This document shows, piece after piece, positions 8,365 to 59,376 of a DNA stretch of 64,000 nucleotides. Source of the stretch: Occultella glacieicola (GTDB lineage Bacteria > Actinomycetota > Actinomycetes > Actinomycetales > Beutenbergiaceae); the NCBI RefSeq assembly GCF_004353825.1, contig NZ_SMNA01000011.1, forward strand, positions 1-64,000, written 5' to 3'. A program made the position numbers and the translations under genes. The notes under the pieces were generated by a model that was given only the letters and a program-made list of their open reading frames with translations, did no database searches and was not told the origin of the DNA. Position 1 is the first letter of the stretch; every line of letters begins with the position of its first letter.

Positions 8365-8601
8365 ATGGGTGCCCAGGTCAACGTCCAGGAGGCGAAGACT
8401 CGCTTGTCCGAGCTGCTCAAGCGGGTTGAGGCCGGGGAGTCGATCACGATCGCGCGCGCCGGCAGGCCGGTGGCCGAACTGCGGCCCGCCCAACCGGTCG
8501 CCCCCGTGTTCGGCGGACTCGTGCCCGGCCTCGTCGTCGGGCCGGAGTTCTTCGAGGAACTTCCCGAGGACGAGTTGTCGCGCTGGGACGGGACGCCATG
8601 A
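8365..8601 (+). CDS. Antitoxin, Phd/YefM family
   Basis: A 78-aa protein with the Phd/YefM fold signature NVQEAKTRLSELLKRVEAGE in the first 30 residues, then ITIARAGRPVAEL, the usual end of the DNA-binding domain. The acidic, proline-containing tail would wrap the toxin. It is followed by a PIN-domain toxin gene overlapping by ATGA, the standard order for such operons. It probably represses its own promoter through the palindrome at 8322-8352. The leader is only about 12 nt, so the mRNA may be nearly leaderless. Confidence 0.92.
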   Translation: MGAQVNVQEAKTRLSELLKRVEAGESITIARAGRPVAELRPAQPVAPVFGGLVPGLVVGPEFFEELPEDELSRWDGTP

Positions 8602-17032: not shown

Positions 17033-17039
17033 CGCCGAG

Positions 17040-19837: not shown

Positions 19838-19869
19838 GGTCCTCATCCTCTCGGACCGACCGCCACGGT

Positions 19870-38062: not shown

Positions 38063-40651
38063 CTACCCGGGGACCCGCACCGACTGCCCGGTGCTCAGCC
38101 GGACCGGGATGTCCATCCGGGTACCGCCGAGCACGAGGACGTCGACGGAGAGCTCCCCGCTCAGGCACCGCAGCTCGTATCCCCCATGCCGTTCGCGCAC
38201 GTCGCCCCAGCCGCGGTCGGTCAGCACCGGCCAGGCCCCACCGGCGGGTGGTGCCGCCACGGTGAGCGTGCCGACGGTCGCGTCCCAGTCGTGCCCGGTG
38301 AGCGCATCGAGAACGCTCCAGCCGGACAAGGCCCTCACATAGTGGTCGCCGCACTCGATCTGGTTGTACGGGTTCCGGCGCCGCCCGTCGTACCGGTCAC
38401 GGAGCCCACGCAGCACCGCGTCGGCCTCCTCGGTCAGCCCCTCCATGATCAGGTGCGCTGCGACCTGCCCCTCGGTGCCGGTCCACACCTCGTCGCAGTA
38501 CTGGGTCGGCACGTCCGGCCGCCCACCGCTGGGCCAGGTGCACATCAGGAGCCCGGTGTCGTCGCCGTCGGCGAACACCCGATCGGTGTTCTCGAAGTCG
38601 GCGAAGCCGACGCGCAGGTTGTGCCGCACCACGGACCGCAGCGCGGTGCGCACGTGCTCGGCGGGGAGGAGGTGCCCGAGGCCGAGCAGGTGCGCCCACC
38701 ACTGCCCGATCAACTGGTCGCCCAGGCACCCGGACTCCCACTGGAACTTCCGCGGGTCGCCCTCCTCGAGCACCTGCACGTAGTACTCGCCGTTGAACAG
38801 CGCCGCGTCGTAGGCGGCGCTGCCTCGCTCGAACCACTCGCGCCACCGATCGGCGACGTCGGAGCGCCCCACGAGCCGGGCCAACTCCTCGCCGGCCCGC
38901 AGAGCCGCCAGCCACAGCGTGCCCATGAACGGGTTCAGCCCGGCCAGGTCGATGTCATGGGTGGACGGCTGGATCCCGTGCAGCATCCCGGTCCCGTCGG
39001 CGTCCCAGGTCCGGGCCACGTACTCGACCAGGCGTTCCACGTTCGGCCAGTACCGCTCCAGCCACGCCGATCCGGCGCCGCCACGCACCTCCCGGTAGGT
39101 CTTGAGCACCGTGCCGAGCATGCCGTCCAGCGCGGGCTGCTCGGGGCCGCCGATCGGCCGGTCCCACAACTGCGGGAGGTAGGTCGGCGAGATGACCCGG
39201 TGCGGGATGAAGCCCGCCGGTGCCTGCATCACGTCGAACTCACACTCGCGCATGTCCCGCTCGATCTGTGGGAACAGCCGGGCGATGCCCTGGGCGTAGT
39301 TGTACACGTGGGTGCAGTTCAGCGGGCAGGAGCCGCCCACCTCGCCGCCCCACATGGTCGTCGACGCACCGAGCACGCCCTCGAACCCGAAGAAGTGCCC
39401 GTCGGCCGCCCGGAAGAATGTCGGGCTGCGCACGATCGCGGCCTGCGCCGCGAGATGCTCGACGGCGTCGCTCGCCAGTGCGCTGCCGCGCAGCATCGTG
39501 GTCCAGGCCCGGGAGTCGGCCTCAAGGTCCGCCCACTGGCTCCGGACCCGGTCGGCGACCGCCTCCGCGTCGGGGTACACGGTGGCGTAGTGGTTGCCGA
39601 GCCAGAACCGGCTCGGCCCCCACTCGGGCCGGGACCCGCCGAACTGGACGAAGTTCACGTACCGGTTCGGGAAGTGCCAGGCGAGCGCGAACCGCACGGT
39701 CACGCTCCGGCCCGGGTCCACCGAGAAGTGCGCGGCCAGCCCACCGTTCCAGGTGGACCCCTCGGGGCTGGCTCCCGAGTGCGCCCGCACCCCGTTCGGC
39801 TGCAGATCCGCCGTCGTCGGTGCCGTCGCCCAGTCGGCCGGACCGAACGGCTGCCGCCCGCGCAGGAAGTCGAGGAACTGCCGCGGGTGCGTCCACTGGG
39901 GCAGCGCGGAGGCCTCGGAGGTGTCGGCTGCCAGGACCATCTGCCCGGCGCCGGGCTCCTCCGGAGCGAGACCATGGTTCTCCAGGATCAGGTCGGTCCA
40001 TCCGTCCCGGCGGCGGACCCGGTTCGTGTTGCCGCCGTAGCCGGGTGCCCGGACGCCGTCGGGCGCGAGTGTCCCGTCGGCGCCGACGGCGTTCTGCACC
40101 GCCCCGCCGAGCCACCCGTGCACGGGCGTGACGTCGGTGTTCGTGATCGTGAAGGTGAACATGGCCACCGGCAGGCTGCTGCGGTCCAGGTCGAGGGGCA
40201 CCATCGGGGTGAACGCCTCGAGGCTGATCCGCACCGGGAGACCGTCGTCGTGGTAGTCGACGCGACCGAACGGATAGGTGCCCGTGAAGGTCGTGGCCTG
40301 GACGCCGTCGGCCTCCCTCAGCAGTTCCCGCTGCCAGCGCGGCACCTCGTCGTCGGTGACCAGCGGGGTGCTGGTGGTGCCCGGCTCGGGCGGTGGTGCC
40401 TGCAGCACCCGGACCGCGTCGAACGGCGGGTCCCACTGCGAGACCCGAACGGCGAAGAACGAGTACGGCAGGTCACCGCGGTGGTTGCCGATGTTGTGCA
40501 GCTGCCACTGCCGCAGCCCACCGTCCGCACCGAGTGCGAGGTTGCCGGTGCCGATGCCGCCGAGCGGCATCGCCACGTGCGGGCCCTCGGTGTGCGGGAT
40601 CGAGCGGGCGACGGCGGAGGTCGCCTCCGCGTGGGCGCGTGCGTCAGTCAT
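38063..40651 (-). CDS. GH116 family glycoside hydrolase
   Basis: An 862-aa GH116 protein (N-terminal GBA2-type beta domain, C-terminal alpha/alpha barrel). MPLGGIGTGNLALGADGGLRQWQLHN, near residue 28, is the family hallmark. The barrel carries GMLHGIQPSTHDIDLAGLN and YCDEVWTGTEGQVAAHLIMEGL. No signal peptide, so cytoplasmic. GH116 includes beta-glucosidases and glucosylceramidases, but members that act as exo-D-arabinofuranosidases on mycobacterial arabinan have been reported. Context with GH172, DUF4185, ribokinase and arabinose-phosphate isomerase favours D-arabinan processing. Last gene of the operon. Confidence 0.88.
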   Translation of the reverse strand: MTDARAHAEATSAVARSIPHTEGPHVAMPLGGIGTGNLALGADGGLRQWQLHNIGNHRGDLPYSFFAVRVSQWDPPFDAVRVLQAPPPEPGTTSTPLVTDDEVPRWQRELLREADGVQATTFTGTYPFGRVDYHDDGLPVRISLEAFTPMVPLDLDRSSLPVAMFTFTITNTDVTPVHGWLGGAVQNAVGADGTLAPDGVRAPGYGGNTNRVRRRDGWTDLILENHGLAPEEPGAGQMVLAADTSEASALPQWTHPRQFLDFLRGRQPFGPADWATAPTTADLQPNGVRAHSGASPEGSTWNGGLAAHFSVDPGRSVTVRFALAWHFPNRYVNFVQFGGSRPEWGPSRFWLGNHYATVYPDAEAVADRVRSQWADLEADSRAWTTMLRGSALASDAVEHLAAQAAIVRSPTFFRAADGHFFGFEGVLGASTTMWGGEVGGSCPLNCTHVYNYAQGIARLFPQIERDMRECEFDVMQAPAGFIPHRVISPTYLPQLWDRPIGGPEQPALDGMLGTVLKTYREVRGGAGSAWLERYWPNVERLVEYVARTWDADGTGMLHGIQPSTHDIDLAGLNPFMGTLWLAALRAGEELARLVGRSDVADRWREWFERGSAAYDAALFNGEYYVQVLEEGDPRKFQWESGCLGDQLIGQWWAHLLGLGHLLPAEHVRTALRSVVRHNLRVGFADFENTDRVFADGDDTGLLMCTWPSGGRPDVPTQYCDEVWTGTEGQVAAHLIMEGLTEEADAVLRGLRDRYDGRRRNPYNQIECGDHYVRALSGWSVLDALTGHDWDATVGTLTVAAPPAGGAWPVLTDRGWGDVRERHGGYELRCLSGELSVDVLVLGGTRMDIPVRLSTGQSVRVPG

Positions 40652-40683
40652 CGGTGCCGTTCGTCGTGTGTCATGTGATCAGC

Positions 40684-41604
40684 TCACTTGATCCCGCTGA
40701 TCCGGATGCCGCTGATGATGTAGCGCTGGAAGATCAGGAACAGCACGATCACGGGGGTGGCGGCGAGCGTGGACCCGGCGAGCAGCAGCCCGTACTCGAT
40801 GCGCCGCTCGGACCGGAACGTGGCCAGGTACTGCTGGATCTGCGTCAGTGCCGAGTCCGGTTCGGTGATCGTCATGATCGGCCAGACGTACGCGTTCCAG
40901 AAGGCCAGGAACGAGGTGATCCCGACCACCACGAACACCGGCTTGGACATCGGCAGGAAGATCGCCGTGAAGATCCGCCACCGGTCCGCGCCGTCGATGA
41001 GCGCGGCCTCCTCGATCGAGGTCGGGATGCCCAGGTAGAACTGCCGGATGAAGAAGATGTGCACCGCGGCGGCCGCGCCGGGAACCACCAGGACCGCGAG
41101 CGTGTTCAGCATGCCCATCCGGGTCACCACGATGTAGGAGGTGAGCAGGATGGCCATCCCAGGGATGAACATCGTCATCAGGACCGCCACCCAGATGGTC
41201 CGCTTGAACGCGAACTCCAGCCGCGCGAACGCGTACGCGGCCATCGAGTTCACGGTCAGGCTCAGCGCCGCGAACAGCAGCGCCCCGCCGAAGGAGACCC
41301 CGACGGCCCGCAGGAACTGGGGGTCGGAGGCGATCTCGACGTAGTTCTGCGGCTGCCAGACGTCCGGGAAGAACTGGAACGGTGAGCTGACCACCTCGTT
41401 GCGGGCCTTGAACCCCGAGATCGCCATCCACGCCAGCGGGAACAGAGCGGCGAGGAAGATGAGCGCCGAGAACACGTAGCGCAGCACCGTCCCACCCGGC
41501 CCGGTGGCGCGGGCCGAGCGCCGCCGGCGGTGCGCGGCGGCGGGGGTCGGTGAGGTGAGTTCCCGGGTGCCGTCGGTGAGGACGATCGGTGCGTTCGCGG
41601 CCAT
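40684..41604 (-). CDS. ABC sugar transporter permease (MalG type)
   Basis: A 306-aa inner-membrane permease with six predicted helices, starting around VLRYVFSALIFLAALFPLAWMAISG. The EAA loop that docks the ATPase is EEAALIDGADRWRIFTAIFLP near residue 200. The ATG at 41604 overlaps the stop of the partner permease (TGATG). It works with the adjacent permease and binding protein; no ATPase gene is present, so a shared MsmK/UgpC-like ATPase from elsewhere is expected. Substrate predicted from context: arabinan oligosaccharides. Confidence 0.94.
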   Translation of the reverse strand: MAANAPIVLTDGTRELTSPTPAAAHRRRRSARATGPGGTVLRYVFSALIFLAALFPLAWMAISGFKARNEVVSSPFQFFPDVWQPQNYVEIASDPQFLRAVGVSFGGALLFAALSLTVNSMAAYAFARLEFAFKRTIWVAVLMTMFIPGMAILLTSYIVVTRMGMLNTLAVLVVPGAAAAVHIFFIRQFYLGIPTSIEEAALIDGADRWRIFTAIFLPMSKPVFVVVGITSFLAFWNAYVWPIMTITEPDSALTQIQQYLATFRSERRIEYGLLLAGSTLAATPVIVLFLIFQRYIISGIRISGIK

Positions 41605-42539
41605 CAGCCGTCCACCGCCTTCTCGGAGTTGATCACCCTGAAGATCACCGCGGACAGCCCGCCGAGGACCACGAACAGCAACAGCGCCGCAGCGATCGAG
41701 TAGCCGACGGTGACGTCGTTGGTGAAGCGCAGGAAGATGTGCAGGTTCGGGAGCAGGGTGGACTGGGTCGGTCCGCCCTGGGTCATGATCAGCGGCAGCT
41801 CGTACTGCTGGATCGTGGCCACGAAGCTGGTCACGAGCAGGTACAGGCCGATGTTGCGCATCAGCGGGATCGTGATGAACACGGTCCGTTGCCACCACTT
41901 CGCCCCGTCGAGCTCGGCCGACTCGAAGTAGCTCTCCGGGATGTCCAGCAGCCCGGCGAGCATGATCAGCGAGGCGAGCCCGAGGCCCAGCCAGATCGCC
42001 GGTGCGGTCAGCGCCAGCAGTGCCGTGCTCGCACTGCCCAGCCACGGCTGGTTCTCGAACCCGACCAGGCTGATCAGCCAGTTCAGCAGGCCCTGCCGGT
42101 ACTCGTAGATCAGCACGAACACGATCGAGGCGATCACCCCGGAGATCACCGTCGGGATGTAGATGCTCACCTTGAGCCATGTCGCCATCCGCGACCCCAT
42201 GGTCTTGACCAGGTTCGCGAACGCGAAAGCCAGGATCATGATCCCCGGGACCACGATCACGGAGAACCGCAGCCCCCGGCCGATCGAGGCCCAGAACACC
42301 GGGTCGGCGAGCACCAGGCGGAAGTTGCGCAGCCCGACGAACGTCGACTCCGTGTAGAAGCTCCAGTTGAAGAAGCTCACGTACCACGCATAGACGAGCG
42401 GCCACAGCACGAAGATCCCGAGCAGGACCAGCGCCGGCGCGAGCATCAGGAAGGCGATCCTGTTGTCACGGTGGGCGGGTTTGGGGCGGCGGCGCGGCCT
42501 GCTCGAGGTCGGTCGCGCCGGTGCCTGGATAGTCGTCAT
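41604..42539 (-). CDS. ABC sugar transporter permease (MalF type)
   Basis: A 311-aa permease: a basic proline-rich N-terminus of about 30 residues, then six membrane segments (IAFLMLAPALVLLGIFVLWPL first). The EAA-type loop (ESAELDGAKWWQRTVFITIPLM) lies near residue 215. The start at 42539 follows AAGGTGAT. Heterodimer partner of the downstream permease. Confidence 0.94.
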   Translation of the reverse strand: MTTIQAPARPTSSRPRRRPKPAHRDNRIAFLMLAPALVLLGIFVLWPLVYAWYVSFFNWSFYTESTFVGLRNFRLVLADPVFWASIGRGLRFSVIVVPGIMILAFAFANLVKTMGSRMATWLKVSIYIPTVISGVIASIVFVLIYEYRQGLLNWLISLVGFENQPWLGSASTALLALTAPAIWLGLGLASLIMLAGLLDIPESYFESAELDGAKWWQRTVFITIPLMRNIGLYLLVTSFVATIQQYELPLIMTQGGPTQSTLLPNLHIFLRFTNDVTVGYSIAAALLLFVVLGGLSAVIFRVINSEKAVDG

Positions 42540-42647
42540 CTCATCACCTTCGAGGTGTCCACGGCTGTCGCCGTCGACTCGGTCGGGTCCACGCAGCGGT
42601 CGGAACCGGGTGGGTGCACCCTGGCCGGGTACACCCACCCGCTCCGG

Positions 42648-43994
42648 TCAGCTACCGGTGCCCGCCAACTGGGAGTTGGCGATCTCGGTGTTGATCTTCT
42701 CGTTCGCCGCGGCGAGCGCCTCCTCCACCGCGGTGCCCTGCATGGCGGCCTCGATCGCCTCGCCCATGGCCAGGCTGACGTTCCAGGGGTAGGCCGGCTC
42801 CGGCTGGGCGAACGGCACGATCTCCTCCTGGATGACGGCGTTCCACGGGTTCACGCTGTCCACGTCCGGGAGCGCGCTGATCGCGTCCGCGACGGACACC
42901 CGCGGCGAGACCTTCGAGAACTGGGTGGCCTCGAAGAACGGCACCACGTTCTCGGTGTCACCGCCGAGCGCCCACTCGATGAACCCGGCCGCCTCGGCCG
43001 ACCGCTCGCTGTTGCCGTCGACCACCCAGGTCCACCCGCCGAGCGTCGCCGTGGTCTGGCCGCTCTGCCCGTCGAAGGACGGCATCGGGGCGACGGCCAC
43101 GTTCGGCACGAGGTCCGGGTAGTCGTTGAGCAACTGGCTGGCGGCCCAGGAGCCGTTCGCCATCATCGCGTACTGGCCGTCGCCGAACGTGGCCGAGTCG
43201 GGGTAGCCCACGCCGTCCGCGGGCGGCAGCGCGCCGCTGGCGAACAGGTCCTGGAACGCCTGCAGCAGCGGCGCGTAGTCCGTGGTCGCCATGGCCTCGG
43301 ACCAGTCGTCGCTGATCGGCAGGTGCCCTGCCACGTTCCACTGGTAGCCCCAGGTGGACCAGGACATGTCCGGCGCGTTCTGGGCGAGCCGGATCCCGAA
43401 CACCTCGTCGTTGGTCAGTGCCTCGGCGTCCGCGACCAGCTCGTCCCAGGTGGTCGGCGGCCCGTCGATGCCGGCCGCCTCGAACAGGTCGGTCCGGTAC
43501 CAGAGCACCGCGGAAGGCTCCACGAGCATCGGGTAGGCGTACTCCTCGCCGTCGACCGTGACCGAGCCGCGGACGTTCTCCTGCAGGTCGTCCCAGGCCT
43601 CGGCGCCGATCAGGTCCGAGAGCGGCGTGATCTCGCTGGCGAGCGCCGCGGCCCGGACGCCGCCGTAGTTCATGGTGCGGATGTCCGGGGCGTTCCCGGC
43701 GGCCTGGGCGGCCGTCATCCGCTGCTCCCAGGCGTCCCCGGGCACCGCGGTGAGGGTGATGTGCACCTCGTCCTGGGACTCGTTGTAGGCGTCCACGACG
43801 CCCTCGTACCATTCGTTCTCCTCATCGGTGAACGAGGTCTGCCAGAAGGTCACCTCGGTGACCCCCTCGGGAACCTCCTCGCCGGGCTCCGAACCGCCGG
43901 TTCCGCCGTCGGGCGTTCCGCTGCAGGCGGCGAGCACCAGAGCGGTGGCGGCCACGACACCGAGGCCGCCGGTCAATCTGCGTGTCGAACGCAT
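42648..43994 (-). CDS. Sugar-binding lipoprotein of the ABC importer
   Basis: A 448-aa family 1 extracellular solute-binding protein. Signal sequence with lipobox LAACSG (cleavage before Cys24), then an alpha/beta binding fold (VTFWQTSFTDEENEWYEGVVDAYNES at the start of the mature part; GSWAASQLLNDYPDL near 270; ATLGGWTWVVDGNS near 320). ATG 43994 is preceded by AAGGAGGATGAG. It delivers ligand to the two adjacent permeases. Ligand predicted from context to be D-arabinan-derived oligosaccharides. Confidence 0.94.
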   Translation of the reverse strand: MRSTRRLTGGLGVVAATALVLAACSGTPDGGTGGSEPGEEVPEGVTEVTFWQTSFTDEENEWYEGVVDAYNESQDEVHITLTAVPGDAWEQRMTAAQAAGNAPDIRTMNYGGVRAAALASEITPLSDLIGAEAWDDLQENVRGSVTVDGEEYAYPMLVEPSAVLWYRTDLFEAAGIDGPPTTWDELVADAEALTNDEVFGIRLAQNAPDMSWSTWGYQWNVAGHLPISDDWSEAMATTDYAPLLQAFQDLFASGALPPADGVGYPDSATFGDGQYAMMANGSWAASQLLNDYPDLVPNVAVAPMPSFDGQSGQTTATLGGWTWVVDGNSERSAEAAGFIEWALGGDTENVVPFFEATQFSKVSPRVSVADAISALPDVDSVNPWNAVIQEEIVPFAQPEPAYPWNVSLAMGEAIEAAMQGTAVEEALAAANEKINTEIANSQLAGTGS

Positions 43995-44039
43995 CTCATC
44001 CTCCTTGATGATCGGCTCCGCGAGGAGCCTCGGTTGGTT

Positions 44040-45188
44040 TCATGCGGGCGCCGGCACGAGCTCGGCGCTGTACCAGAACACGTTGTAGGGACCCCAGATC
44101 GAGAGCGTGAAGTAGATCGTGAGGCCGTCATCGCTGACGTATCGAGGATTCAGGTAGGGGCTGTACAGCCCCGGTGTCTCGGCCTGGGTGGTGAGCACGT
44201 GCGGCTCGCTCCACGGCCCCCAGGGGGTGATGCCCTCGGCGAGCACCGCGTCCCCGTCCGTGGAGTAGGTCATCAGCCACCGGTCGAGGGTGGGGCTGTG
44301 GACCACGGACAGCTCGCCGATGGTCCCCTCCAGGACGGTCTGCGCGTCCGCCATCGACTCCGACCAGCGGGGGTCGCCGTCATCGTCGGTGCCGGCGAAG
44401 TACCGGTAGGCGGACAGGTCCTCGACGGCCTCGGTGGTGGCCGGGACCTTCATCAGCTGCACCCCACCGAACCGGCCGGACGGGATCGACCAGAAGTACA
44501 GGAAGTCCTCCCCGTCCTCGGTGACCTCGGCGACCGAGACCTGAACGAAGTTCGAGTCACCGGGCCACTGCGGCGCCGGCAGCGTCTCCCAGCTGGCGCC
44601 GCCGTCGGTGCTGCGGGCCAGGCCCGCGTGGTTCGCGTCCCACTGGCCCGGCTCGCCCCAGTGCCGTACCGACATGTACTGCAGGTAGAGCGTCTCGCCG
44701 ACGGCGAAGCCGTAGGTCGGGATCTTCGTCACCTCGCCCCCGGCGTCGTTGTGGTCGTGCTCGCCGGGCACCACCTCGAGGGCGAGCCCGATGTCGTCGA
44801 GCAGCCAGCCGTCGAAGGTGAGCCCGTCGCTCGGATCCTCGTCGGTGGTGTAGGCGACCGCGTTCGAGCGCCAATTGCCGCCCTGGCCGCCGACCGCGTC
44901 GGGGTCACGGGTGCCGAACGTGTCGCCGAACACGAGGTAGGTCGTGTCCCCGACGTTGAACATCGAGCCGAGGTCGGTGCCGGCAACCGCGACGCTCGCG
45001 GTGTCGTTGACTCCGGAGTCCGGCCCGGTGAGCTGGGTGATCTGCGTGACGTTCGTGACGCCGTCGAGCACGAACGGGCGGTCGGGGTCGGTGTTCACGT
45101 CGGTGCCTCCTCCGGTCGAGCCGCACGCGACCAGCGCCACCGAGGACACTGTGGCGGCGCAGATCATCGCCATCCTCGCCCGCCTCAT
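44040..45188 (-). CDS. DUF4185 lipoprotein, predicted GH183 endo-D-arabinanase
   Basis: A 382-aa lipoprotein (lipobox LVACGS after MRRARMAMICAATVSSVA). The mature protein is a DUF4185 beta-propeller: SMFNVGDTTYLVFGDTFGT, RSNAVAYTTDEDPSDGL, FAVGETLYLQYMSVRHWGEPGQW and HSPTLDRWLMTYSTDG are recognisable blades. DUF4185 proteins are now classed as GH183 endo-D-arabinanases. Being surface-anchored, it would make the first cuts in external arabinan. Overlaps the GH172 gene by ATGA. Confidence 0.82.
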   Translation of the reverse strand: MRRARMAMICAATVSSVALVACGSTGGGTDVNTDPDRPFVLDGVTNVTQITQLTGPDSGVNDTASVAVAGTDLGSMFNVGDTTYLVFGDTFGTRDPDAVGGQGGNWRSNAVAYTTDEDPSDGLTFDGWLLDDIGLALEVVPGEHDHNDAGGEVTKIPTYGFAVGETLYLQYMSVRHWGEPGQWDANHAGLARSTDGGASWETLPAPQWPGDSNFVQVSVAEVTEDGEDFLYFWSIPSGRFGGVQLMKVPATTEAVEDLSAYRYFAGTDDDGDPRWSESMADAQTVLEGTIGELSVVHSPTLDRWLMTYSTDGDAVLAEGITPWGPWSEPHVLTTQAETPGLYSPYLNPRYVSDDGLTIYFTLSIWGPYNVFWYSAELVPAPA

Positions 45189-46285
45189 CCCAGCCTCGGC
45201 AGCCGTTGACCGACCGGCGCCAGCGTGAGGTGCTCGGCCGGGGTCTCCTGGTACCAGTACGCGGTCGAGGACAGGTCGTCGCTCCGCCGGTTCGCGTGCC
45301 CGTGCTCGATGGTGACCCGGATCGACGTGGTGAACGGCACCGGGTCCTCGATGTGGAACCGGTACGTCGAGACCTGACCGGACCAGTTCTCCCCGCCGGC
45401 CAGGGTGATGCCGTGGTACGGCGCGCTGTAGCTCTCCGACGGGCACCAGGCCGTGTTGAAGTAGTCCTCGGTGCCGGTGCCGTGCAGGCTCGGTGGCCAC
45501 GTCTCGCCGTCGACGAAGATCATGTCGTCGCCCTCGCCGTACCAGTTCCACTCGGCGGTGTGGCGCAGGTTCGTCACGTTCAGGACGCAGCCGACGTAGT
45601 GCCCGCGGCCGGATGTCTGCAGGATCGTGTAGTTGCCCTCGCCGGTCAGGTTCGGCCCCTCGAACAGCAGCTCGGAGTTCGTCAGGCCTGCCGCAGTGGT
45701 CTCGTCCAGGCCGGCCGTCGGGTTCTCCCGGTTCCAGGACGCGTGGAACCGCCCGAGTCCGTCCTCGAGGGCGTCGAACGCGTCGTAGTCGATGTAGTAG
45801 TAGAACCAGAGCACCTCCTCGCTGCACTCGCTGATGATCTCGAATCGGGCGCGGGTCGCGAACGGCATATGGAAGAACGAGTTCAGGGCCTTGCCGTCCT
45901 GCGGGCTCATCTGCAGCGGCGCCGACGCGTAGTTCACGGTGCGCCCGTGCCCCACCCCGAAGAAGTCCCCGAGCGGCACCAGCACCGACGGGTGCGGCGA
46001 GTCGTCCCAGTAGACGGCGAGCACCAGCTTGCGCAGGAAGTCGCGGTCGGCGCTGTCCGGCGTCGGCGCGTCCCGAGGCGCCACCGTCATCCAGATGTGG
46101 TTGACCGAGCCGGCGCCACGCAGGTCGGCCAGCTCGACCCGCTCGCCGGGGTGCAGCGTGAGCCGGTCCTCGTTGCCGCCGGACCGGTCCCAACTGGACG
46201 CGCGCAGGCGCCGGTGCGTGCGCAGCCGCGGCAGGTCGCGCAGGCTGCTGCCGTACGGGCCGTAACCCCCGGTCGCGATCGCCAT
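45185..46285 (-). CDS. DUF2961 / GH172 glycoside hydrolase
   Basis: A 366-aa protein of the DUF2961 family (GH172; exo-acting furanosidases). N-terminal SSWDRSGGNEDRLTLHPGE, VPLGDFFGVGHG near 110, the strongly conserved GTGTEDYFNTAWCPSESY near 235 containing a candidate catalytic Glu, and GLYAS-type elements replaced by SAPYHGITLAGGENW. No signal peptide, so cytoplasmic. ATG 46285 chosen for GAGAGGAA 5 nt upstream over in-frame ATGs at 46300 and 46309. Predicted exo-D-arabinofuranosidase acting on imported oligosaccharides. Confidence 0.85.
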   Translation of the reverse strand: MAIATGGYGPYGSSLRDLPRLRTHRRLRASSWDRSGGNEDRLTLHPGERVELADLRGAGSVNHIWMTVAPRDAPTPDSADRDFLRKLVLAVYWDDSPHPSVLVPLGDFFGVGHGRTVNYASAPLQMSPQDGKALNSFFHMPFATRARFEIISECSEEVLWFYYYIDYDAFDALEDGLGRFHASWNRENPTAGLDETTAAGLTNSELLFEGPNLTGEGNYTILQTSGRGHYVGCVLNVTNLRHTAEWNWYGEGDDMIFVDGETWPPSLHGTGTEDYFNTAWCPSESYSAPYHGITLAGGENWSGQVSTYRFHIEDPVPFTTSIRVTIEHGHANRRSDDLSSTAYWYQETPAEHLTLAPVGQRLPRLG

Positions 46286-46327
46286 CTGATTCCTCTCCAT
46301 CGAGTCCATGTCCCGCACCCGCCCGGC

Positions 46328-47254
46328 TCAGGTCCGCGCCGGTGTGCCGGCCAGGTCGAGCACCTCGGCCCGGCGCGGCGCGGACGCCGCACCCCCGCGT
46401 CGGGTCACGGAGACGGCGGCCGCGGCGTTCGCGAAGGCCACCGCCTCGGTGATCGGGTCGCCGGCGGCCAGGCGGGCGCCCAGGCTGCCGCAGAACGCGT
46501 CCCCCGCCCCGATCGTGTCCAGCACGTCGACCCGGAGCCCGGGCACGTGGACCTCGCCCCGGCCCGGTTCGAGGACGAGCGCACCGTCCGGTCCGAGGGT
46601 GACGATCAGCGCGTAGGACCGGCCCGCGGCCGCCCGGCGGGCCACGTCCAGGACCAGCTCGTCGGCGCGGGCCCCGGTCAGCTGTCGCAGCTCCGGCTCG
46701 TTCGGGACGAGGACGTCGACGGCGTCCGCCAGGTCCGCCGGGACGGTCGCCGCCGGCGCCGGGTTCAGCACGACGCGTACGCCCGCGGCCCGGGCGATCC
46801 GGGCGGCCCGCACGGTGGCGTCCATCGGCAGTTCGAGTTGCAGGAGCAGCACGGTCGCGGACTCGATCCGGGCACGGGCCGCCTCGACGTCGGCGACCGT
46901 GACGGCCAGGTTCGCCCGGGGGATCACGATGATCGAGTTCTGGCCGGTCTCGTCCAGCACCGGCAGGCCGACGCCGGTGCCGTGCTCGGGATCGCTGCTC
47001 ACGTCGGTGGCACCGATCCCCTCGGCGCCGAGGAACTCGCGGAACTCGGCCGCGAACAGGTCCTCGCCGAGGCGCCCGATCACCGCGGTCGTGGCGCCCG
47101 CACGCGCCGCCGCGACCGCCTGGTTGAAGCCCTTGCCGCCGACGAACGTGGCGAACTGGCTCCCGATCAGGGTCTCACCCGGGCCGGGGCGCCGCGGTGC
47201 GGTGGCCACCAGGTCGTACATGAAGGAGGCCAGGACACAGACGTCGGCGCTCAC
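46328..47254 (-). CDS. Ribokinase-family (PfkB) sugar kinase, predicted D-arabinose kinase
   Basis: A 308-aa PfkB kinase. FVGGKGFNQAVAAARAGA near residue 38 is the ribokinase substrate motif, and DTIGAGDAFCGSLGARL near 245 holds the catalytic Asp and anion hole. Overlaps the SIS gene by GTGA. Ribokinases phosphorylate the 5-OH of D-ribose and some accept D-arabinose. Paired with an arabinose-5-phosphate-isomerase-like enzyme and arabinan hydrolases, phosphorylation of D-arabinose to D-arabinose 5-phosphate is the most economical reading. Ribose as substrate is the alternative. Confidence 0.9.
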   Translation of the reverse strand: MSADVCVLASFMYDLVATAPRRPGPGETLIGSQFATFVGGKGFNQAVAAARAGATTAVIGRLGEDLFAAEFREFLGAEGIGATDVSSDPEHGTGVGLPVLDETGQNSIIVIPRANLAVTVADVEAARARIESATVLLLQLELPMDATVRAARIARAAGVRVVLNPAPAATVPADLADAVDVLVPNEPELRQLTGARADELVLDVARRAAAGRSYALIVTLGPDGALVLEPGRGEVHVPGLRVDVLDTIGAGDAFCGSLGARLAAGDPITEAVAFANAAAAVSVTRRGGAASAPRRAEVLDLAGTPART

Positions 47255-47874
47255 GAGGACACCTGCCGTGAGCCGGGCCCGAGCAGCTTCTGTCCGAGCG
47301 CCCCGCTCGGATGGCGTTCGCCGAACTGCTCCGAGGTGAACCCGGAGAGCGTCATCAGCGCGATCGCGAGCGCGTCGCCCACGGCGAGCGTCGACACCGC
47401 CGAGGCCGTCGGGGCGAGCCCGAGCGGATCCGCCTCACCGTCCACGGAGATGTCGAGGGTCACCCTCGCGAAGAACGCCAGGGGCGAGGCCGGGTCCCGG
47501 GTCATGGCGATGATCGGCACGCCCCACGCCGTCAGCATGTTCGCGAACTCGCACACCTCCACGGTCTCGCCGGAGTTCGAGATCAGGATCGCGACGTCAC
47601 CGGGCGTGGCGGCGCCGGAGTCGCCGTGCAGGGCCTCGCCGGCGTGGACGAACTGGGCCGGGGTGCCGGTGCTGGAGAGCGTCGCCGCGATCTTGCGGGC
47701 GATGTGGCCGGACTTGCCGAGACCGGAGACCAGGACCCGCCCGTGGGAGGCCCGGATCAGGGTGATCGCTGCCCCCAGGGTGGGCTCGACGAGGTCCGCC
47801 GTGCGGGCGATCGAGCGGGACTCGATCAGCATGGCGGAGCGGGCTGCGGCGAGGGCGTCGGCGATGGTGACCAC
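47251..47874 (-). CDS. SIS-domain sugar isomerase, KdsD/GutQ-like (arabinose-5-phosphate isomerase)
   Basis: A 207-aa SIS-domain protein without CBS domains. It has VSGLGKSGHIARKIAATLSS, HAGEALHGDSG, ISNSGETVEVCEF and SAVSTLAVGDALAIALM, the pattern of KdsD/GutQ arabinose-5-phosphate isomerases. It would convert D-arabinose 5-phosphate to D-ribulose 5-phosphate, entering the pentose phosphate pathway. This actinobacterium is not expected to make KDO, so a catabolic role fits. First gene of the eight-gene operon; GTG at 47874. Confidence 0.88.
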   Translation of the reverse strand: MVTIADALAAARSAMLIESRSIARTADLVEPTLGAAITLIRASHGRVLVSGLGKSGHIARKIAATLSSTGTPAQFVHAGEALHGDSGAATPGDVAILISNSGETVEVCEFANMLTAWGVPIIAMTRDPASPLAFFARVTLDISVDGEADPLGLAPTASAVSTLAVGDALAIALMTLSGFTSEQFGERHPSGALGQKLLGPGSRQVSS

Positions 47875-47936
47875 GGTGTCTCTCAGTGCCTCTCAGTGCG
47901 TCGGTGCATGAGTGTGACCAGGTGTCGATCAGTGGC

Positions 47937-47995
47937 GGTAAACGATTACTGGTAATCGATTACTCGAGGGTAGGCGGACGACCTGCGGATGTCAA
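47937..47995 (-). promoter_or_regulatory. Promoter with tandem LacI operators for the arabinan operon
   Basis: On the minus strand TTGACA (47995-47990) is followed after 17 nt by TACCCT (47972-47967). Directly downstream lie GGTAATCGATTACT (47951-47964, containing the perfect palindrome GTAATCGATTAC) and an adjoining degenerate copy GGTAAACGATTACT (47937-47950). The operators cover the expected transcription start, so repression by the nearby LacI is predicted. The same palindrome precedes the other transcript at 52062-52073. Confidence 0.8.
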
Positions 47996-48066
47996 CGCCT
48001 CCGGTGCCGCTCGTGGATAACGATCCGCTAACCGACCGCTCGGGCGGCAGCCGCGGACGGCCGGGT

Positions 48067-49137
48067 TCAGAGGATCTCGAGCTGGTCCACGGTCGGAGTC
48101 GGCGGGCGGGCCGCACTCGGCGCATCCAGGTAGAACAGCGCGGTCGAGGCGATGTCGTCGCGCAGCGGGAGGTACCGGCCGCCGGTGCGCCAGCCGAGGG
48201 CCTGGATGTCCACGGTGAGGTCGGTCTCGAAGTGGATCGGGTCCGGCACGTGCCAGCGGTACATGCCGAACCGTTGCTGGGAGGCGTAGAGCCCGTCCGG
48301 ACGCAGTACCTGGTGCAGGCCGAGATAGGGGGTCGTGAACTCCGTGTAGCCCTGCCCGGGCACGTCGAAGTTCCACGCTCCCCCGATGTAGTCCTCGGTG
48401 CCCGTGCCACAGATCGTCGGGTACGGCTCCGCCTGCGCCGCGTCCCCGTCGAGGTAGAACTTGATCTCGCCCTCACCCCACCACCCGGTGGAGTTCACAC
48501 CCCAGGCGAGATAGGTGCCGACGTACTGGCCGCGGCCGCGGACGTCGTCGAGCAGCACGTGCGTGGCTCGGTCCGGCAGCGGGTTGCTGCGCCGCCACTG
48601 CGCGTGCAGCCGCCCGGTGCCGACTTCGTCGCCGCCGTCGGTATAGGTGACCTGGAAGTACACGATCACGGGCTCGGGGCCGAGGTTCTCGATGCTCAGC
48701 CGGGCACCGTCGGCGAACGGCATCGGCCAGTACGAGTTGAAGCCTCCGTGCGGGTTCGCGGCCACCATCGCCGAGCTGAGCTGAGCGAACGCGCCCCAAC
48801 CCTGACCGAAGAAGTCCCCGACCGGCACCTCGATCGCGGGTTCGGACGCCCCATCCCAGTACCCGCGCAGCAGCAGCCGGCGCCAGTTGTCGGTGTGGGT
48901 GGTGAGCCAGAGGTGGGTGATCCGCCCGGACCCGGTGATCCGGGCCAGGTCGTACGTCTGCCCGGGCTCGATCCGCACGCTCGGGGAGACCTTCCAGCCG
49001 ACGCCCAGGTCGCGGGCCGCCTCGGCACCGGTGCCCTCGGTGGCCCGGCCACCGCCGCCCTTGGCGCCGTCGGGGTTCTCCGGGCTGATCGAACGGGTCC
49101 GCACGTCGCGGAGCGCGGCCAGGTCGCTGTTGAACAT
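48067..49137 (-). CDS. Second DUF2961 / GH172 glycoside hydrolase
   Basis: A 356-aa DUF2961 protein. Family hallmarks: HLWLTTHTDNWRRLLLRGYWDG, VPVGDFFGQGWGAF near 103, ICGTGTEDYIGGAWNFD near 225 with the candidate catalytic Glu, and YRWHVPDPIHF near 285. No signal peptide. It is only distantly similar to the GH172 at 45.2 kb, so the two probably cut different linkages or ends. Last gene of the DUF4185 / lacI / GH172 transcript. Confidence 0.85.
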   Translation of the reverse strand: MFNSDLAALRDVRTRSISPENPDGAKGGGGRATEGTGAEAARDLGVGWKVSPSVRIEPGQTYDLARITGSGRITHLWLTTHTDNWRRLLLRGYWDGASEPAIEVPVGDFFGQGWGAFAQLSSAMVAANPHGGFNSYWPMPFADGARLSIENLGPEPVIVYFQVTYTDGGDEVGTGRLHAQWRRSNPLPDRATHVLLDDVRGRGQYVGTYLAWGVNSTGWWGEGEIKFYLDGDAAQAEPYPTICGTGTEDYIGGAWNFDVPGQGYTEFTTPYLGLHQVLRPDGLYASQQRFGMYRWHVPDPIHFETDLTVDIQALGWRTGGRYLPLRDDIASTALFYLDAPSAARPPTPTVDQLEIL

Positions 49138-49181
49138 GAGGCCTCACATCTGTGTCGGGAGCGGTCGAGGGGGATCGGATC

Positions 49182-50198
49182 TCAGGCGGCCGAGGTAGTA
49201 CCCCGGACGAGCAGGTGCGGCGGCAGCAACAGGTGGACCGGTTCGCTGGCCGGGTCCGCGGCGAGGGCCACCAGACGCTCAGCGGCCCGGGTGCCCATCT
49301 CCTCGACCGGCTGGGCCACCAGCGTCACCGCCGGGCTGACCATCTGGGTCCAGCGATCGTCGTCGACTCCCACGAGCGAGATCTCGTCCGGCATCCGCAG
49401 CCCGCTGGCCTGCACACCCCGGTAGGCGCCGGTGGTCAGCGGTCCGTTCATGGCGAAGATCGCGTCCGGGTGGTTGCGCGGGTCCGCGAGCGCGGCCCGC
49501 ACCGCGGCCTCGGCGTCGTCGATCTTGAGGTCGGTGCGCACCATCCGGGCCGGGTCGAGGGTCAGCCCGGCGCCGGTGAGCGCCTGCCGCACGCCCTGGA
49601 GGCGGTCCTCCGTGGTGCTCACGCCGGAGGGGCCCGCCAGGCACATGATGTCGCGGTGGCCGAGCTCGAGCAGGTGCTCGGTGGCGAGCCGGCCGGCCTC
49701 GACGTTGTCCAACAGGATCGTGTCCCCGGTGAAGTCGTGCACGCGCCGGTCGACCACGACGGTCGGCACCTGCGCGGCGAGCAGCGCGCTCAGGTCGGAC
49801 GTCGCCTCGGAGGTCACCGAGACCACCACGCCGGCCATCCGCTGGGCCACGGCCGTGGTCAGGTAGCTGCGCTCCCGGTCGAGTTGCTCATCGGTATTGC
49901 AGAGCATCACCGAGATCCCCGAGCGCACGGCGACATGTTCGACCGCTGTCACCAGCGAGGTGAAGAACGGGTTCTGCACATCGGAGACGATCGCGGCCCA
50001 GACGTCCGCCCGCTGGCGCCGCAGGGCCCGGCCGTTCGGGTTCGGGACGTACCGGGTGACCTCGGCGGCGCGCCGCACCCGGGCGGCCAGCTCGGGGTCG
50101 ACGGAGCCCAGGCCGTTGAGCACCCGGGACACGGTGGCCGTGGAGACCCCGGCCTCCCGCGCGACGTCCGTGATCCGCACCGCCCGCTGCCCGTTCAT
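49182..50198 (-). CDS. LacI-family regulator of the arabinan locus
   Basis: A 338-aa repressor: helix-turn-helix RITDVAREAGVSTATVSRVLNG, hinge NPNGRALRRQRAD, then a sugar-binding core. ATG 50198 overlaps the stop of the preceding gene (ATGA). It sits in the middle of one of the two transcripts that share the palindrome GTAATCGATTAC, so it is the natural candidate to bind it and to repress both. The inducer would be an arabinan-derived sugar. Confidence 0.93.
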   Translation of the reverse strand: MNGQRAVRITDVAREAGVSTATVSRVLNGLGSVDPELAARVRRAAEVTRYVPNPNGRALRRQRADVWAAIVSDVQNPFFTSLVTAVEHVAVRSGISVMLCNTDEQLDRERSYLTTAVAQRMAGVVVSVTSEATSDLSALLAAQVPTVVVDRRVHDFTGDTILLDNVEAGRLATEHLLELGHRDIMCLAGPSGVSTTEDRLQGVRQALTGAGLTLDPARMVRTDLKIDDAEAAVRAALADPRNHPDAIFAMNGPLTTGAYRGVQASGLRMPDEISLVGVDDDRWTQMVSPAVTLVAQPVEEMGTRAAERLVALAADPASEPVHLLLPPHLLVRGTTSAA

Positions 50199-52045
50199 GG
50201 CGCGATCCTCGCACCCTCGCCGTAGACCGCCAGCTCCGACACCGACGTGTAGCCCGCCCAGCCGCCCGCGCGACCTCCCAGCCGGACGCCGGTGCTGATC
50301 TGGGCCGGCACGGTGAATGTGTACGTCCTGGTGCCGGTGGCGGTCCAGTCCGCCGGGTAGGGCGGTTCCACGACGGCCGGCACCTCCACCCAGTCCGCGC
50401 CGCGGCGCACCTGCACCCGGGGCGGCGCGTCGAACCAGCCGGCGCCGTAGTCGTGTGGCCCGGAGGTGAACTCGAGTCGCTCGATCCGCACCGGCTCCGG
50501 CCAGGTGTATCCCCAGTACTCGGCGTCCTTGCGCAGCCCGTTCCAGGAGTCCTCGGCCCGGTCGGTGCTGCCGTCGTTGAGCACCTCGATGCGTCCGGAG
50601 CGGCAGGCGGTGGCGATCGCGCGGACGCCGGGCGCGGTGGCGAGATTGCCGGCGTCGGGCTCGGAGACGGTGTCGGCGCCGCGGGCCGGCGGTGCGGTCC
50701 GCGCGGCCAGGGCCGCCGGGTCCGTGCGGGGCATCGGGTCCAGTCGCAGCGGCCGCAGCGAGAAGTGGTAGCTCGAGCCGCCGTGGGTGGAGGCTCCGAC
50801 GAACCAGTTCGACTGGACCCACGCGTCCCGGCCGTCCTCACTGAGGAACTTGCTCGGGATCGTGGTGGCGTACCCGCCGTGCCGCGGCTCGGCGGACCGC
50901 GGCCCGGACCAGGGGAACGGGCCGAAATCATGGCTCAGGAACGGGCGCCAGGGGCCCCACGGCGTCGGCGACTCGTAGAACTCGAACGTGAACTCGGTCC
51001 AGGACGAGTACAGGTACCGGTCCAGGCCCGGGTTGTAGACGATCCCGCCCTGGGCGAGCACAGAGCCGGGGACCGGTGCCGGTGCCATCGGCACCGGCAC
51101 CGCGGTACCGACCCGGCGGGTGTCGGTCAGGACCGGGACGCGGTCGGTGAGGACGGACGAGAAGGTGGGGACGTCGTCGGGCCCGGTGCCGGCGAAGAAC
51201 TCCCAGGTGGAGCGGTCCAGGACGGAGGCCGCGGGGACCCGGGCCAGGTACAGGTCCTGCGGGTCCGGCACGACGCCCGAGTAGGAGGTGCGCCAGTTGT
51301 GGTCGAGGCCGTAGGCGTAGACGAAGGCGGCCGGGTCCGGCTCACCCGGGCCGACGGTGCCGGCGGTGGCGCGGAGCACGGCGGCGCGGCGGTTGCTCTG
51401 CCCGAAATCGAGGAACATGATCGTGGTGAACTCGTCGGTGAACATGGCCCGCTCGGGTGCGGTCCAGGTGCGCCCGTAGTCGCGGGAGCACACGACGCCG
51501 GCGGCGGGCGCGGTGTTGAACGTGTCCGGCGAGGCCCCGCAGCGCAGGTCCTGCACGGCCAGGTAAAGCTCGTCACGGCCGTCCCCGTCGCCGTCCACGG
51601 CGACCATGCCGGTCGGCTTGCTGTTGAACCGCTCCGGGTCGGTCCAGACCGGGGCGACCTCCCGGCCCGCCGCCAGCCGTTGCCCGGTCAGGCCCGTACG
51701 CGGGTCCCCGTCGACGCGGTTGATCACGAGGTCGGACCACGGACCGTCCGAGAAGCCGAGCCCGTCCCCGCACGCGGCATAGAGGGCGCCGTCGTCGGCC
51801 CAGGCGCTCGGCCAGAGGTCGCCGTCGCTCGGCGAGGAGACGCCGGCCGCGTAGGACACCGCGGCGACCGCGAAGAAGTCCGACGGCGGGGGCACGGTCC
51901 CGGGGGCACCGTCGCCGGGGCGGTGGCTGCCCCGGGCGTCGCGCGCGCCGCCTGTGCCGACTGTGCCGACGGTGCCACCCGCGCCGCCTGTGTCACCTGT
52001 GCCGAACAAGCCGGGCACGCCGGGGAACTCCTCGGGCTGGGTCAC
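50195..52045 (-). CDS. DUF4185-like protein with C-terminal discoidin-like domain
   Basis: A 616-aa protein. Residues about 55-420 form a DUF4185-type propeller (SSPSDGDLWPSAWADDGALYAACGDG at the start; GGIVYNPGLDRYLYSSWTEF and ESPTPWGPW later; PSKFLSEDGRDAWVQSNWF). Residues about 460-610 look like an F5/8 type C (discoidin) carbohydrate-binding domain. The glycine-rich N-terminus has no signal peptide, unlike the lipoprotein DUF4185 at 44 kb. It may act inside the cell on imported oligosaccharides or use an unusual export route. GTG 52045 follows GGAGG. Confidence 0.72.
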   Translation of the reverse strand: MTQPEEFPGVPGLFGTGDTGGAGGTVGTVGTGGARDARGSHRPGDGAPGTVPPPSDFFAVAAVSYAAGVSSPSDGDLWPSAWADDGALYAACGDGLGFSDGPWSDLVINRVDGDPRTGLTGQRLAAGREVAPVWTDPERFNSKPTGMVAVDGDGDGRDELYLAVQDLRCGASPDTFNTAPAAGVVCSRDYGRTWTAPERAMFTDEFTTIMFLDFGQSNRRAAVLRATAGTVGPGEPDPAAFVYAYGLDHNWRTSYSGVVPDPQDLYLARVPAASVLDRSTWEFFAGTGPDDVPTFSSVLTDRVPVLTDTRRVGTAVPVPMAPAPVPGSVLAQGGIVYNPGLDRYLYSSWTEFTFEFYESPTPWGPWRPFLSHDFGPFPWSGPRSAEPRHGGYATTIPSKFLSEDGRDAWVQSNWFVGASTHGGSSYHFSLRPLRLDPMPRTDPAALAARTAPPARGADTVSEPDAGNLATAPGVRAIATACRSGRIEVLNDGSTDRAEDSWNGLRKDAEYWGYTWPEPVRIERLEFTSGPHDYGAGWFDAPPRVQVRRGADWVEVPAVVEPPYPADWTATGTRTYTFTVPAQISTGVRLGGRAGGWAGYTSVSELAVYGEGARIAP

Positions 52046-52060
52046 TCCGCCTCCGATGCC

Positions 52061-52108
52061 GGTAATCGATTACGCACAATCTACCCACACCCGGCGCACC
52101 GAGTTCAA
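52061..52108 (-). promoter_or_regulatory. Promoter and LacI operator of the DUF4185 / lacI / GH172 transcript
   Basis: The perfect palindrome GTAATCGATTAC lies at 52062-52073, 16 nt before the start codon. On the minus strand TTGAAC (52108-52103) and TAGATT (52083-52078) could be -35 and -10 (spacing 19). The layout matches the promoter at 47.97 kb. Confidence 0.72.
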
Positions 52109-58362: not shown

Positions 58363-59376
58363 TCAGGCCGACTTCTTGGTCCGCCGTCGGGTCGGCTTGG
58401 CCTCCTCTGCCTCGTCGTCCGCCTCCGCCTTCGCGGTCTTCGACTTGGTGTCCTTCGCCGTGCCGGACTTCGAGGCGGCGGACTTCGAGGTCTTGGCCGC
58501 GCCCGAGGTGGACGTGCTCTTCGCCCGGCTCGAGGAGGGCTTCGACGCAGGCGACCCGCCGTCGTCGTCCGCCTCGGCGGTCGTGCTCGCCGTGTCCCGC
58601 TTCGCGCGCGACGCCTCGACGCTGCGGCGCAGGGCCTCCATCAGGTCGAGGACCTCGCCACCCTCCTCGGCCTCCTCGGGCGCCTCGTTCTCGAACGCCT
58701 CGCCCTTCTCGAGCTTGGCCTCGATCAGGCGCTTCATCTGCGCCTGGTAGTCGTCGGTGAACTCCCCGGGAGCGAAGTCCGACTCGTAGCTGCTGACCAG
58801 GGCCGCGGACATCTGGAGCTCCTTCGCGGAGATCTTGACGTCGTCGGCCAGGGCCGGGAAGTCCGCTTCGCGCACCTCGTCGGACCAGAGCAGGGTCTGC
58901 AGCAGCAGCACGTCGCCGCGCACCCGCAGCGCCGCGAGCCGGGTCTTCTGCCGGAGGGTGAAGGAGACGATCGCGGTGCGCTCGGACTCCTCCAGGGTGC
59001 GGCGCAGCAGCACGTAGGACTTCGTCGACGCGGACGTGGGGGCCAGGTAGTAGGAGGATTCCAGCATGATCGGTTCGACCTGCTCGCTCGGGACGAACTC
59101 GAGCACATCGATCTCGCGACTGCGCTCGGCCGGGAGCGTCTGCAGGTCGTCATCGGTCAGCACGACGGTCTGCTCGCCGTCCGTGTAGGCCTTGTCGATG
59201 TGCTCGTAGGGCACCACCTCGCCGCACACCTCGCACTTGCGCTGGTACCGGATCCGGCCGCCGTCCGCATCGTGCACCTGGTGCAGCTTCACGTCGTGGC
59301 TCTCCGTGGCCGAGTAGACCGACACCGGCACGTTCACGAGCCCGAACGTGATGGCCCCCTTCCAGATCGACCGCAT
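58363..59376 (-). CDS. ku: Ku protein (bacterial NHEJ)
   Basis: A 337-aa DNA-end-binding protein. MRSIWKGAITFGLVNVPVSVYSATESHD at the start and the HDADGGRIRYQRKCEVCGEVVPYEHI zinc-like segment near 30-50 are hallmarks. The Ku core runs to about 250. The C-terminal 85 residues are a Lys/Ser/Ala-rich tail, the type that binds DNA ends in actinobacterial Ku. It homodimerises and recruits LigD, which is not encoded here. ATG 59376 is chosen for family start and the GCGAGGGCC upstream. Confidence 0.96.
   Translation of the reverse strand: MRSIWKGAITFGLVNVPVSVYSATESHDVKLHQVHDADGGRIRYQRKCEVCGEVVPYEHIDKAYTDGEQTVVLTDDDLQTLPAERSREIDVLEFVPSEQVEPIMLESSYYLAPTSASTKSYVLLRRTLEESERTAIVSFTLRQKTRLAALRVRGDVLLLQTLLWSDEVREADFPALADDVKISAKELQMSAALVSSYESDFAPGEFTDDYQAQMKRLIEAKLEKGEAFENEAPEEAEEGGEVLDLMEALRRSVEASRAKRDTASTTAEADDDGGSPASKPSSSRAKSTSTSGAAKTSKSAASKSGTAKDTKSKTAKAEADDEAEEAKPTRRRTKKSA

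Follow-up and report, generated by a model that had tools for sequence, protein, structure and literature searches.

What does Occultella glacieicola degrade with a cluster of glycoside hydrolases that resemble enzymes for D-arabinan, and how does it use the sugar that is released? The question is raised by a locus of 11 closely spaced genes, all on the minus strand at positions 38063-52045 by gene calls and translations, in contig NZ_SMNA01000011.1 of assembly GCF_004353825.1. The window analyzed here is the whole stretch of 64,000 nucleotides from position 1 of this contig. In addition to hydrolases, an importer and a LacI-family regulator, the locus encodes a PfkB-family kinase (46328-47254) and a single-SIS protein of the KdsD type (47251-47874). 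Domain scans and trees, together with pocket residues for the kinase and alignments for the SIS protein, lead us to predict a D-arabinose 5-kinase and a D-arabinose 5-phosphate isomerase. We consider it likely that this LacI-controlled locus scavenges the D-arabinan of other bacteria and that the released sugar is used by this kinase-first pair.

The target would be the D-arabinan of mycobacterial-type arabinogalactan or lipoarabinomannan. At the cell surface, the polymer would be cut by a lipoprotein of family GH183 (GH183a). Oligosaccharides would be taken up by the importer and broken down to D-arabinose by cytoplasmic enzymes, namely two GH172 proteins (GH172a and GH172b), a GH116 protein and a second GH183-like protein (GH183b). 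Phosphorylation of D-arabinose at C5 by the PfkB protein would then yield D-arabinose 5-phosphate, which the SIS protein would isomerize to D-ribulose 5-phosphate for entry into the pentose phosphate pathway. The hydrolase and importer part of this scheme is already known, being a variant of the D-arabinan locus published in 2023 (PMC10509167). The new part is the sugar module, in which a PfkB kinase and a SIS protein stand in place of the fucose-type isomerase of related genomes; the kinase-first pair would thus replace an isomerase-first enzyme.

Distribution of the sugar module among related genomes

The SIS protein, DUF4185, DUF2961, the kinase and the fucose-type isomerase of a related locus, L019, served as queries against 248 genomes of the order (G and L numbers are our designations for genomes and loci). 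At a limit of E 1e-20, the SIS matches formed two groups, one of seven genomes at 60-100% identity and one of nine at 32-43%. GH183 matches were called strong at 120 bits or more, a limit chosen after the scores had been seen, no score falling between 129 and 88 bits. All seven genomes with a close SIS protein have strong GH183 and GH172 matches. In six of them the SIS and GH183 genes are no more than 20 kb apart, in G080 the SIS gene is on a separate 18.6-kb contig, and in all seven a kinase gene adjoins the SIS gene. Among the nine genomes with a distant SIS protein, one (G193) has a strong GH183 match, about 106 kb away.

Strong GH183 and GH172 matches occur together in 22 genomes, of which seven have the close SIS protein and 15 the fucose-type isomerase; none has both and none has neither. 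Outside this set, the fucose-type gene was found in 14 of 226 genomes and the close SIS in 0 of 226. The fucose-type isomerase is thus present in 29 of the 248 genomes, always with at least 64% identity to the query. Fisher tests on these related genomes gave p = 1.6e-8 for the association of the SIS protein with the 22 and p = 5.9e-6 for the exclusion within them, and the same count by genus gave four with SIS and six with the fucose-type enzyme out of ten, with none mixed. Genome G004, which has a GH183 match of 129 bits, falls outside the 22 and lacks GH172, close SIS and fucose-type isomerase. Of the 15 genomes, 12 have a GH183 or GH172 gene no more than 20 kb away from the fucose-type gene; in G012, G101 and G182 the distance is large.

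A preliminary description of this DNA, made from the letters alone, had held the kinase/isomerase route to be distinct from the fucose-type pathway. This agrees with our counts, in which the pair replaces the fucose-type isomerase genome by genome. In L019 a Fucose_iso_C protein is combined with an FGGY kinase, a pairing that is absent from the locus in the window. Neither the L019 isomerase nor the Fucose_iso_C domain had a match in this genome, in which other isomerase families were not searched; across the seven SIS genomes, there was no match to the domain in six and one weak match under the cut-off in G203. An FGGY kinase located elsewhere in the window (15461-17032) shares 28% identity with the L019 enzyme and belongs to a uronate-type cluster; FGGY kinases were not sought genome-wide.

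An FGGY kinase was considered as a rule for fucose-type loci and rejected, as one like that of L019 was seen in the fetched stretches of only four of the 15 genomes (L017, L018, L019 and L036). Loci L021, L023, L024, L034 and others are of the arabinan type with a fucose-type isomerase and have no FGGY kinase in the fetched stretch. Two arabinan-type loci (L015:4284-7340 and L016:14087-17275) carry an extra GH172 gene and a protein of 1018-1062 amino acids without a counterpart in the window.

Kinase

The seven locus-type kinases form one clade (support 100/99) against 18 others, consisting of 15 ribokinase-like proteins, two kinases near fucose-type isomerases and Escherichia coli RbsK. In E. 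coli numbering, Asn14 is replaced by Met and Ala45 by Phe or Tyr in all seven members of the clade, while Ala98 is replaced by Gly and Ile100 by Pro in six of seven each; Asp16, Gly42, Lys43, Asn46, Glu143 and Asp255 are retained in the clade. All 18 comparison kinases, among them E. coli RbsK, have Ala98; the Asn14 column is missing in four that were called short at the N-terminus (L120, L127, L131 and L132). The window kinase shares with RbsK the PfkB family and six of the seven ribose-binding residues (Asp16, Gly42, Lys43, Asn46, Glu143 and Asp255), and with Met at the seventh, Asn14, it is classed as ribokinase-like only. It differs further from RbsK in Phe for Ala45, Gly for Ala98 and Pro for Ile100.

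Since D-arabinose is the C2 epimer of D-ribose, the changed pocket positions are where they would be expected. According to the available part of a study of E. coli ribokinase, the A98G substitution raised kcat on D-arabinose 15-fold and left KM for D-arabinose unchanged at 310 mM, and simulation placed the Ala98 methyl group closest to the 2'-OH of D-arabinose (PMC9604405). Changes at Asn14 emerged under 2-deoxyribose selection, as stated in the accessible portion of another report (PMC6452873).

The window kinase could instead be an ordinary ribokinase or a D-ribulokinase, with the SIS protein serving elsewhere and an unrelated enzyme isomerizing D-arabinose. Two observations fit such an assignment: its identity with ribokinase-like proteins of the order reaches 38-47%, and two ribokinase-like kinases occur near fucose-type isomerases elsewhere (L132 and L133). 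We nevertheless regard it as unlikely, given the altered residues on the C2 side of the pocket, the 4-base overlap of the kinase and SIS genes in the window, their joint occurrence in seven of seven genomes and the outcome of the Fucose_iso_C search above. The TIGR02152 model was dropped as a specificity test. The window kinase scored 276.8 against a cut-off of 299.65 and 10 of 10 relatives scanned were also under it, so that none of the 11 scanned kinases, comparators included, passes.

In L132 (8171-10710) and L133 (6674-10182), a fucose-type isomerase gene lies near that of a ribokinase-like kinase outside the clade, and L132 also has an FGGY kinase. It is possible that this arrangement represents another wiring of D-arabinose or D-ribulose use.

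Hydrolases and target polymer

Pfam cut-offs were exceeded in the locus for the N-terminal and catalytic parts of GH116, two DUF2961 domains, one DUF4185 domain, PfkB, SIS, a substrate-binding protein, two permeases and LacI. The gene set listed in the preliminary description is therefore present, with its second DUF4185 protein below the Pfam cut-off. GH183, GH172, GH116 and a binding protein with permeases occur together in one locus, as in D-arabinan utilization loci of the Microbacterium type.

GH183a (44040-45188), a candidate surface lipoprotein endo-D-arabinanase, scored 276.9 bits with PF13810 (DUF4185; cut-off 39.5) and matches EndoMA1 of Microbacterium arabinogalactanolyticum (8hhv) at E 8.4e-50. 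We placed its start at 45188, based on an ATGA overlap with the preceding stop, where the gene caller chose 45173. The catalytic Asp pair that EndoMA1 carries in its 5-bladed propeller (D33 and D51) is kept as D67 and D84 in the 377-amino-acid call.

GH183b (50195-52045) alone scored 32.7 bits with PF13810 and was filed as GH183-like, while its orthologues in G044 and G171 exceed the cut-off (41.2 and 42.3 bits). It had no match among PDB sequences at E 0.1. Its Asp pair (D76 and D94) has the spacing of 18 seen in EndoMA1 and is invariant in 11 sequences; a joint MAFFT alignment left D76 unaligned. An AlphaFold model built from 11 input sequences (mean predicted local distance difference test score 70, predicted template modeling score 0.63) shows a GH183 fold and a beta-rich C-terminal part. 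EndoMA1 was the top Foldseek match of this model (E 4e-19, template modeling scores 0.40/0.50), and VIA-align gave EndoMA1 a Z of 29.2 over 279 residues at a root-mean-square deviation of 2.6, the next protein having a Z of 21.1.

Both DUF2961 proteins belong to GH172 by PF11175 (287.8 and 280.7 bits) and keep Glu in the GEG and GTGTED motifs, which we take to be the catalytic positions. GH172a (48067-49137), a candidate ExoMA1-like exo-alpha-D-arabinofuranosidase, matches ExoMA1 (8ic8) at E 1.8e-176. GH172b (45185-46318) matches ExoMA1 at E 1.1e-28 but the alpha-D-fructofuranosidase alphaFFase1 at E 1.5e-77, and 4kq7 and the Dysgonomonas GH172 protein 8ah3 are likewise nearer to it than ExoMA1 is. 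The GH116 protein (38063-40651), a candidate ExoMA2-like exo-beta-D-arabinofuranosidase of the kind placed in GH116 subfamily 4, matches ExoMA2 (8ic6) at E 3.8e-126. It keeps ExoMA2 residues E431 and D557 and the substrate residues H446 and R483 by motif (FEG, STHD, CTH and PHR), though a phmmer alignment puts the nucleophile elsewhere and nine residues are inserted after the nucleophile motif. As far as motifs tell, catalytic residues are conserved in all five hydrolases. The assignment to D-arabinan enzyme families made in the preliminary description thus holds for GH183a, GH172a and GH116, which match characterized D-arabinan enzymes, and is less clear for GH172b.

The localization proposed earlier, with a lipoprotein DUF4185 outside and the remaining hydrolases inside, fits the N-termini. 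By eye, lipoprotein signals are found on GH183a and the binding protein only, and GH172b, GH116 and GH183b have no signal peptide. GH183b relatives in L005, L006, L007, L013 and L016 likewise lack one by eye, and translations of two shorter relatives (L017 at 13156, and L018) have lipoprotein-like N-termini.

Another furanoside polymer could be the target, such as an alpha-fructan or a plant L-arabinan, with the kinase and isomerase acting on its sugar. The affinity of GH172b with alphaFFase1 and the distant relationship of the GH116 protein to ExoMA2, with its insertion, point in that direction. GH172a is a close relative of ExoMA1 and GH183a a relative of EndoMA1, however, and a KdsD-type isomerase would suit D-arabinose 5-phosphate better than fructose or L-arabinose, so that we judge another polymer to be quite improbable. 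For D-arabinan as the target, we note that no Emb-type arabinosyltransferase was found in the genome; the organism itself is therefore unlikely to make arabinan of the mycobacterial type.

Further DUF4185 matches lie outside the locus at C20:375746-376585 (L002) and C17:420560-420925 (L003). The latter is a partial match (positions 157-276), and the protein that contains it has a signal peptide as judged by eye.

Isomerase

The SIS protein was compared with 80 KdsD-type matches listed from a scan of genome contigs, mostly from proteobacteria and with no actinobacterium among the matches listed. It is 45-58% identical to these over the SIS domain. It comprises 207 amino acids without a CBS part, and 79 of the 80 have 321-336; the remaining one has 195 and is probably L050, where the match ends at a contig edge. 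Alignments place Lys59, Glu111, Glu152 and His193 in the window protein, which we take to be the catalytic residues of arabinose-5-phosphate isomerases in this numbering. Lys59, Glu152 and His193 are found in seven of seven close SIS proteins and in 80/80 of the KdsD-type matches listed, and Glu111 in six and 70, respectively. In each of the nine distant SIS proteins of the order, Lys59 is replaced by Thr.

A tree that also included 27 of the 80 KdsD-type matches listed, the nine distant SIS proteins and five from a scan of the phylum grouped the seven close SIS proteins as one clade (98/99). The phylum scan of 396 genomes found no further close SIS; besides the window protein, five match at E 1e-30 or better, with 43-46% identity. 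With TIGR00393 the window protein scored 191.9 against a cut-off of 203.7 and formal membership is not claimed; because the CBS part is absent, the match covers only model positions 1-154 of 268. Scores with the KpsF model were 117-141 bits for three distant SIS proteins and 192-198 bits for four of the clade.

The window protein thus resembles KdsD and the single-SIS isomerases 2xhz and 5uqi in its SIS domain and catalytic residues. Unlike KdsD, it has no CBS part and a catabolic gene context, in a genome where no match to 3-deoxy-D-manno-octulosonate (KDO) 8-phosphate synthase was found. That the pair makes D-arabinose 5-phosphate from D-ribulose 5-phosphate for biosynthesis, as KdsD does for KDO, is very improbable: KdsD-type isomerases normally run in that direction, but there is this negative search for KDO 8-phosphate synthase in the genome, a free-sugar kinase would be superfluous, and the pair shares one operon with hydrolases and an importer.

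Nine single-SIS proteins without the catalytic Lys59 were seen in L025-L033, several of them near genes resembling FGGY kinases and ATP-binding cassette (ABC) ATPases. They are perhaps a different family of sugar-phosphate isomerases.

Transcription units, operator and import

Four-base overlaps between the SIS and kinase genes and between the GH183b and LacI genes (49182-50198 for the regulator, assigned by Pfam), the ATGA overlap of GH172b with GH183a and the gaps between the other genes suggest two co-transcribed units. The first is predicted to run from 52045 to 48067 (GH183b, LacI and GH172a) and the second from 47874 to 38063 (SIS, kinase, GH172b, GH183a, the binding protein, two permeases and GH116). 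The operator GTAATCGATTAC precedes the first unit at 52062-52073, and a tandem pair, GTAATCGTTTAC at 47938-47949 and GTAATCGATTAC at 47952-47963, precedes the second. This bears out the two transcripts with a common operator that had been described previously, and the regulator may act on both. Shuffled windows contained on average 0.05 operator matches with up to one mismatch, and exact matches to GTAATCGNTTAC are confined to this locus in the whole 5.34-Mb genome. The exact operator is also found directly before the fucose-type isomerase gene in L134 (G012) and L135 (G182). A scan for sigma-70 promoters found none.

The importer is encoded by genes for a binding lipoprotein (42648-43994; SBP_bac_1 and SBP_bac_8, with the lipobox VLAAC in its translation), permease 1 (41604-42539) and permease 2 (40684-41604), both with BPD_transp_1. 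The locus had been called complete, a term that needs a small correction, as it encodes no ATP-binding subunit for the importer. A genome search for a shared ATPase, suggested in the preliminary description, gave two UgpC-type ATPases that pass the curated cut-off. Around one of these (C19:424564-425676), inspection by eye showed no permease gene within 1.5 kb, and it is a candidate for the shared importer ATPase.

Elsewhere in the window are a Phd/YefM antitoxin and PIN-domain toxin gene pair (8365-8987), a uronate-use cluster of FGGY kinase, mannitol-dehydrogenase-type oxidoreductase and UxaC glucuronate isomerase (15461-19846), a Ku-type end-joining protein (58363-59376) and a single reading frame (61205-63136, gene call) in which an ABC ATPase is joined to a binding part of the NMT1 type.

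Comparison with known systems

The closest known system is the D-arabinan locus of M. arabinogalactanolyticum, which, as far as the available text of that paper goes, combines endo-acting enzymes outside with import and exo-acting enzymes inside and is induced by D-arabinose and cell-wall extract (PMC10509167, Nat Commun 2023). The window shares with it a GH183 protein outside, an SBP_bac_8-type importer, signal-less GH172 and GH116 proteins inside and a predicted conversion of D-arabinose to D-ribulose 5-phosphate. The same text refers to "an isomerase and a kinase", both putative, whereas the window has a PfkB kinase and a KdsD-type SIS protein. L019 is near the published locus, its GH172 matching ExoMA1 at E 1.6e-244, more strongly than GH172a of the window (E 1.8e-176). 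PUL42 of Dysgonomonas gadei has DUF4185 and DUF2961 enzymes for D-arabinan as well, but in a member of the Bacteroidota and with a predicted fucose isomerase, which on arabinan was the most abundant carbohydrate-active enzyme according to the accessible part of that report (PMC10115798). We found no kinase-first route in a D-arabinan locus in the open-access literature; Fig. 9 of PMC10509167, which was outside the search, could show such genes in other species.

The open-access literature searched did not return the work on a propionibacterial D-arabinokinase. Around 1960, Volk reportedly described a D-arabinokinase (EC 2.7.1.54) and an arabinose-5-phosphate isomerase in Propionibacterium pentosaceum. 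These are said to be the same two reactions that we propose for the window pair, and to our knowledge no gene has been assigned to either. On balance we favor a joint reading, held with somewhat less confidence than the explanation proposed at the outset: a dedicated D-arabinose 5-kinase, which has by nature the A98G change that was engineered into ribokinase, and a KdsD-type isomerase recruited from lipopolysaccharide synthesis to catabolism would form a kinase-first pathway. In one branch of D-arabinan degraders this pathway would have displaced the fucose-type isomerase, and its genes would be the first candidates to account for the D-arabinokinase activity described long ago.

Several points weigh against D-arabinan scavenging by a kinase-first pair. 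The enzymes are known here from sequence, and the kinase and isomerase activities are predictions. The seven SIS genomes represent four genera in two families and not seven independent cases. One member of the kinase clade (L010) keeps Ala98. Among the 14 comparison kinases with the column present, Asn14 is found in 12, with one Ser and one Thr (L121 and L128), and four comparison kinases have Leu at Ala45 (L122, L124, L132 and L133). TIGR02152 does not separate the clade from the comparators, which are not certified ribokinases. Gly98 alone is not enough for an arabinose kinase, given that KM of the A98G enzyme stays at 310 mM. GH172b appears to lean toward the fructofuranosidase side and is less clear as a D-arabinan enzyme, and the locus has no gene for an ATP-binding subunit. 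The operator core, which we take to be a common LacI-family sequence, was found as such or as near variants in 11 of 38 scanned sequences, the window included. Taken together, the steps of the preliminary description that are open to computation came out mostly favorably, and we regard its interpretation as supported, with the enzyme activities as predictions.

Implications

If the proposed explanation is correct, these genes and their specificity signature would belong to a D-arabinose route for which we found no gene link in the open-access literature searched. The kinase would be a natural enzyme for the production of D-arabinose 5-phosphate, useful in arabinoside synthesis, for which wild-type E. 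coli ribokinase is poor. The kinase and SIS genes together would provide a simple marker for finding more degraders of mycobacterial cell-wall arabinan, and D-arabinan degraders would burn the sugar in two alternative, mutually exclusive ways.

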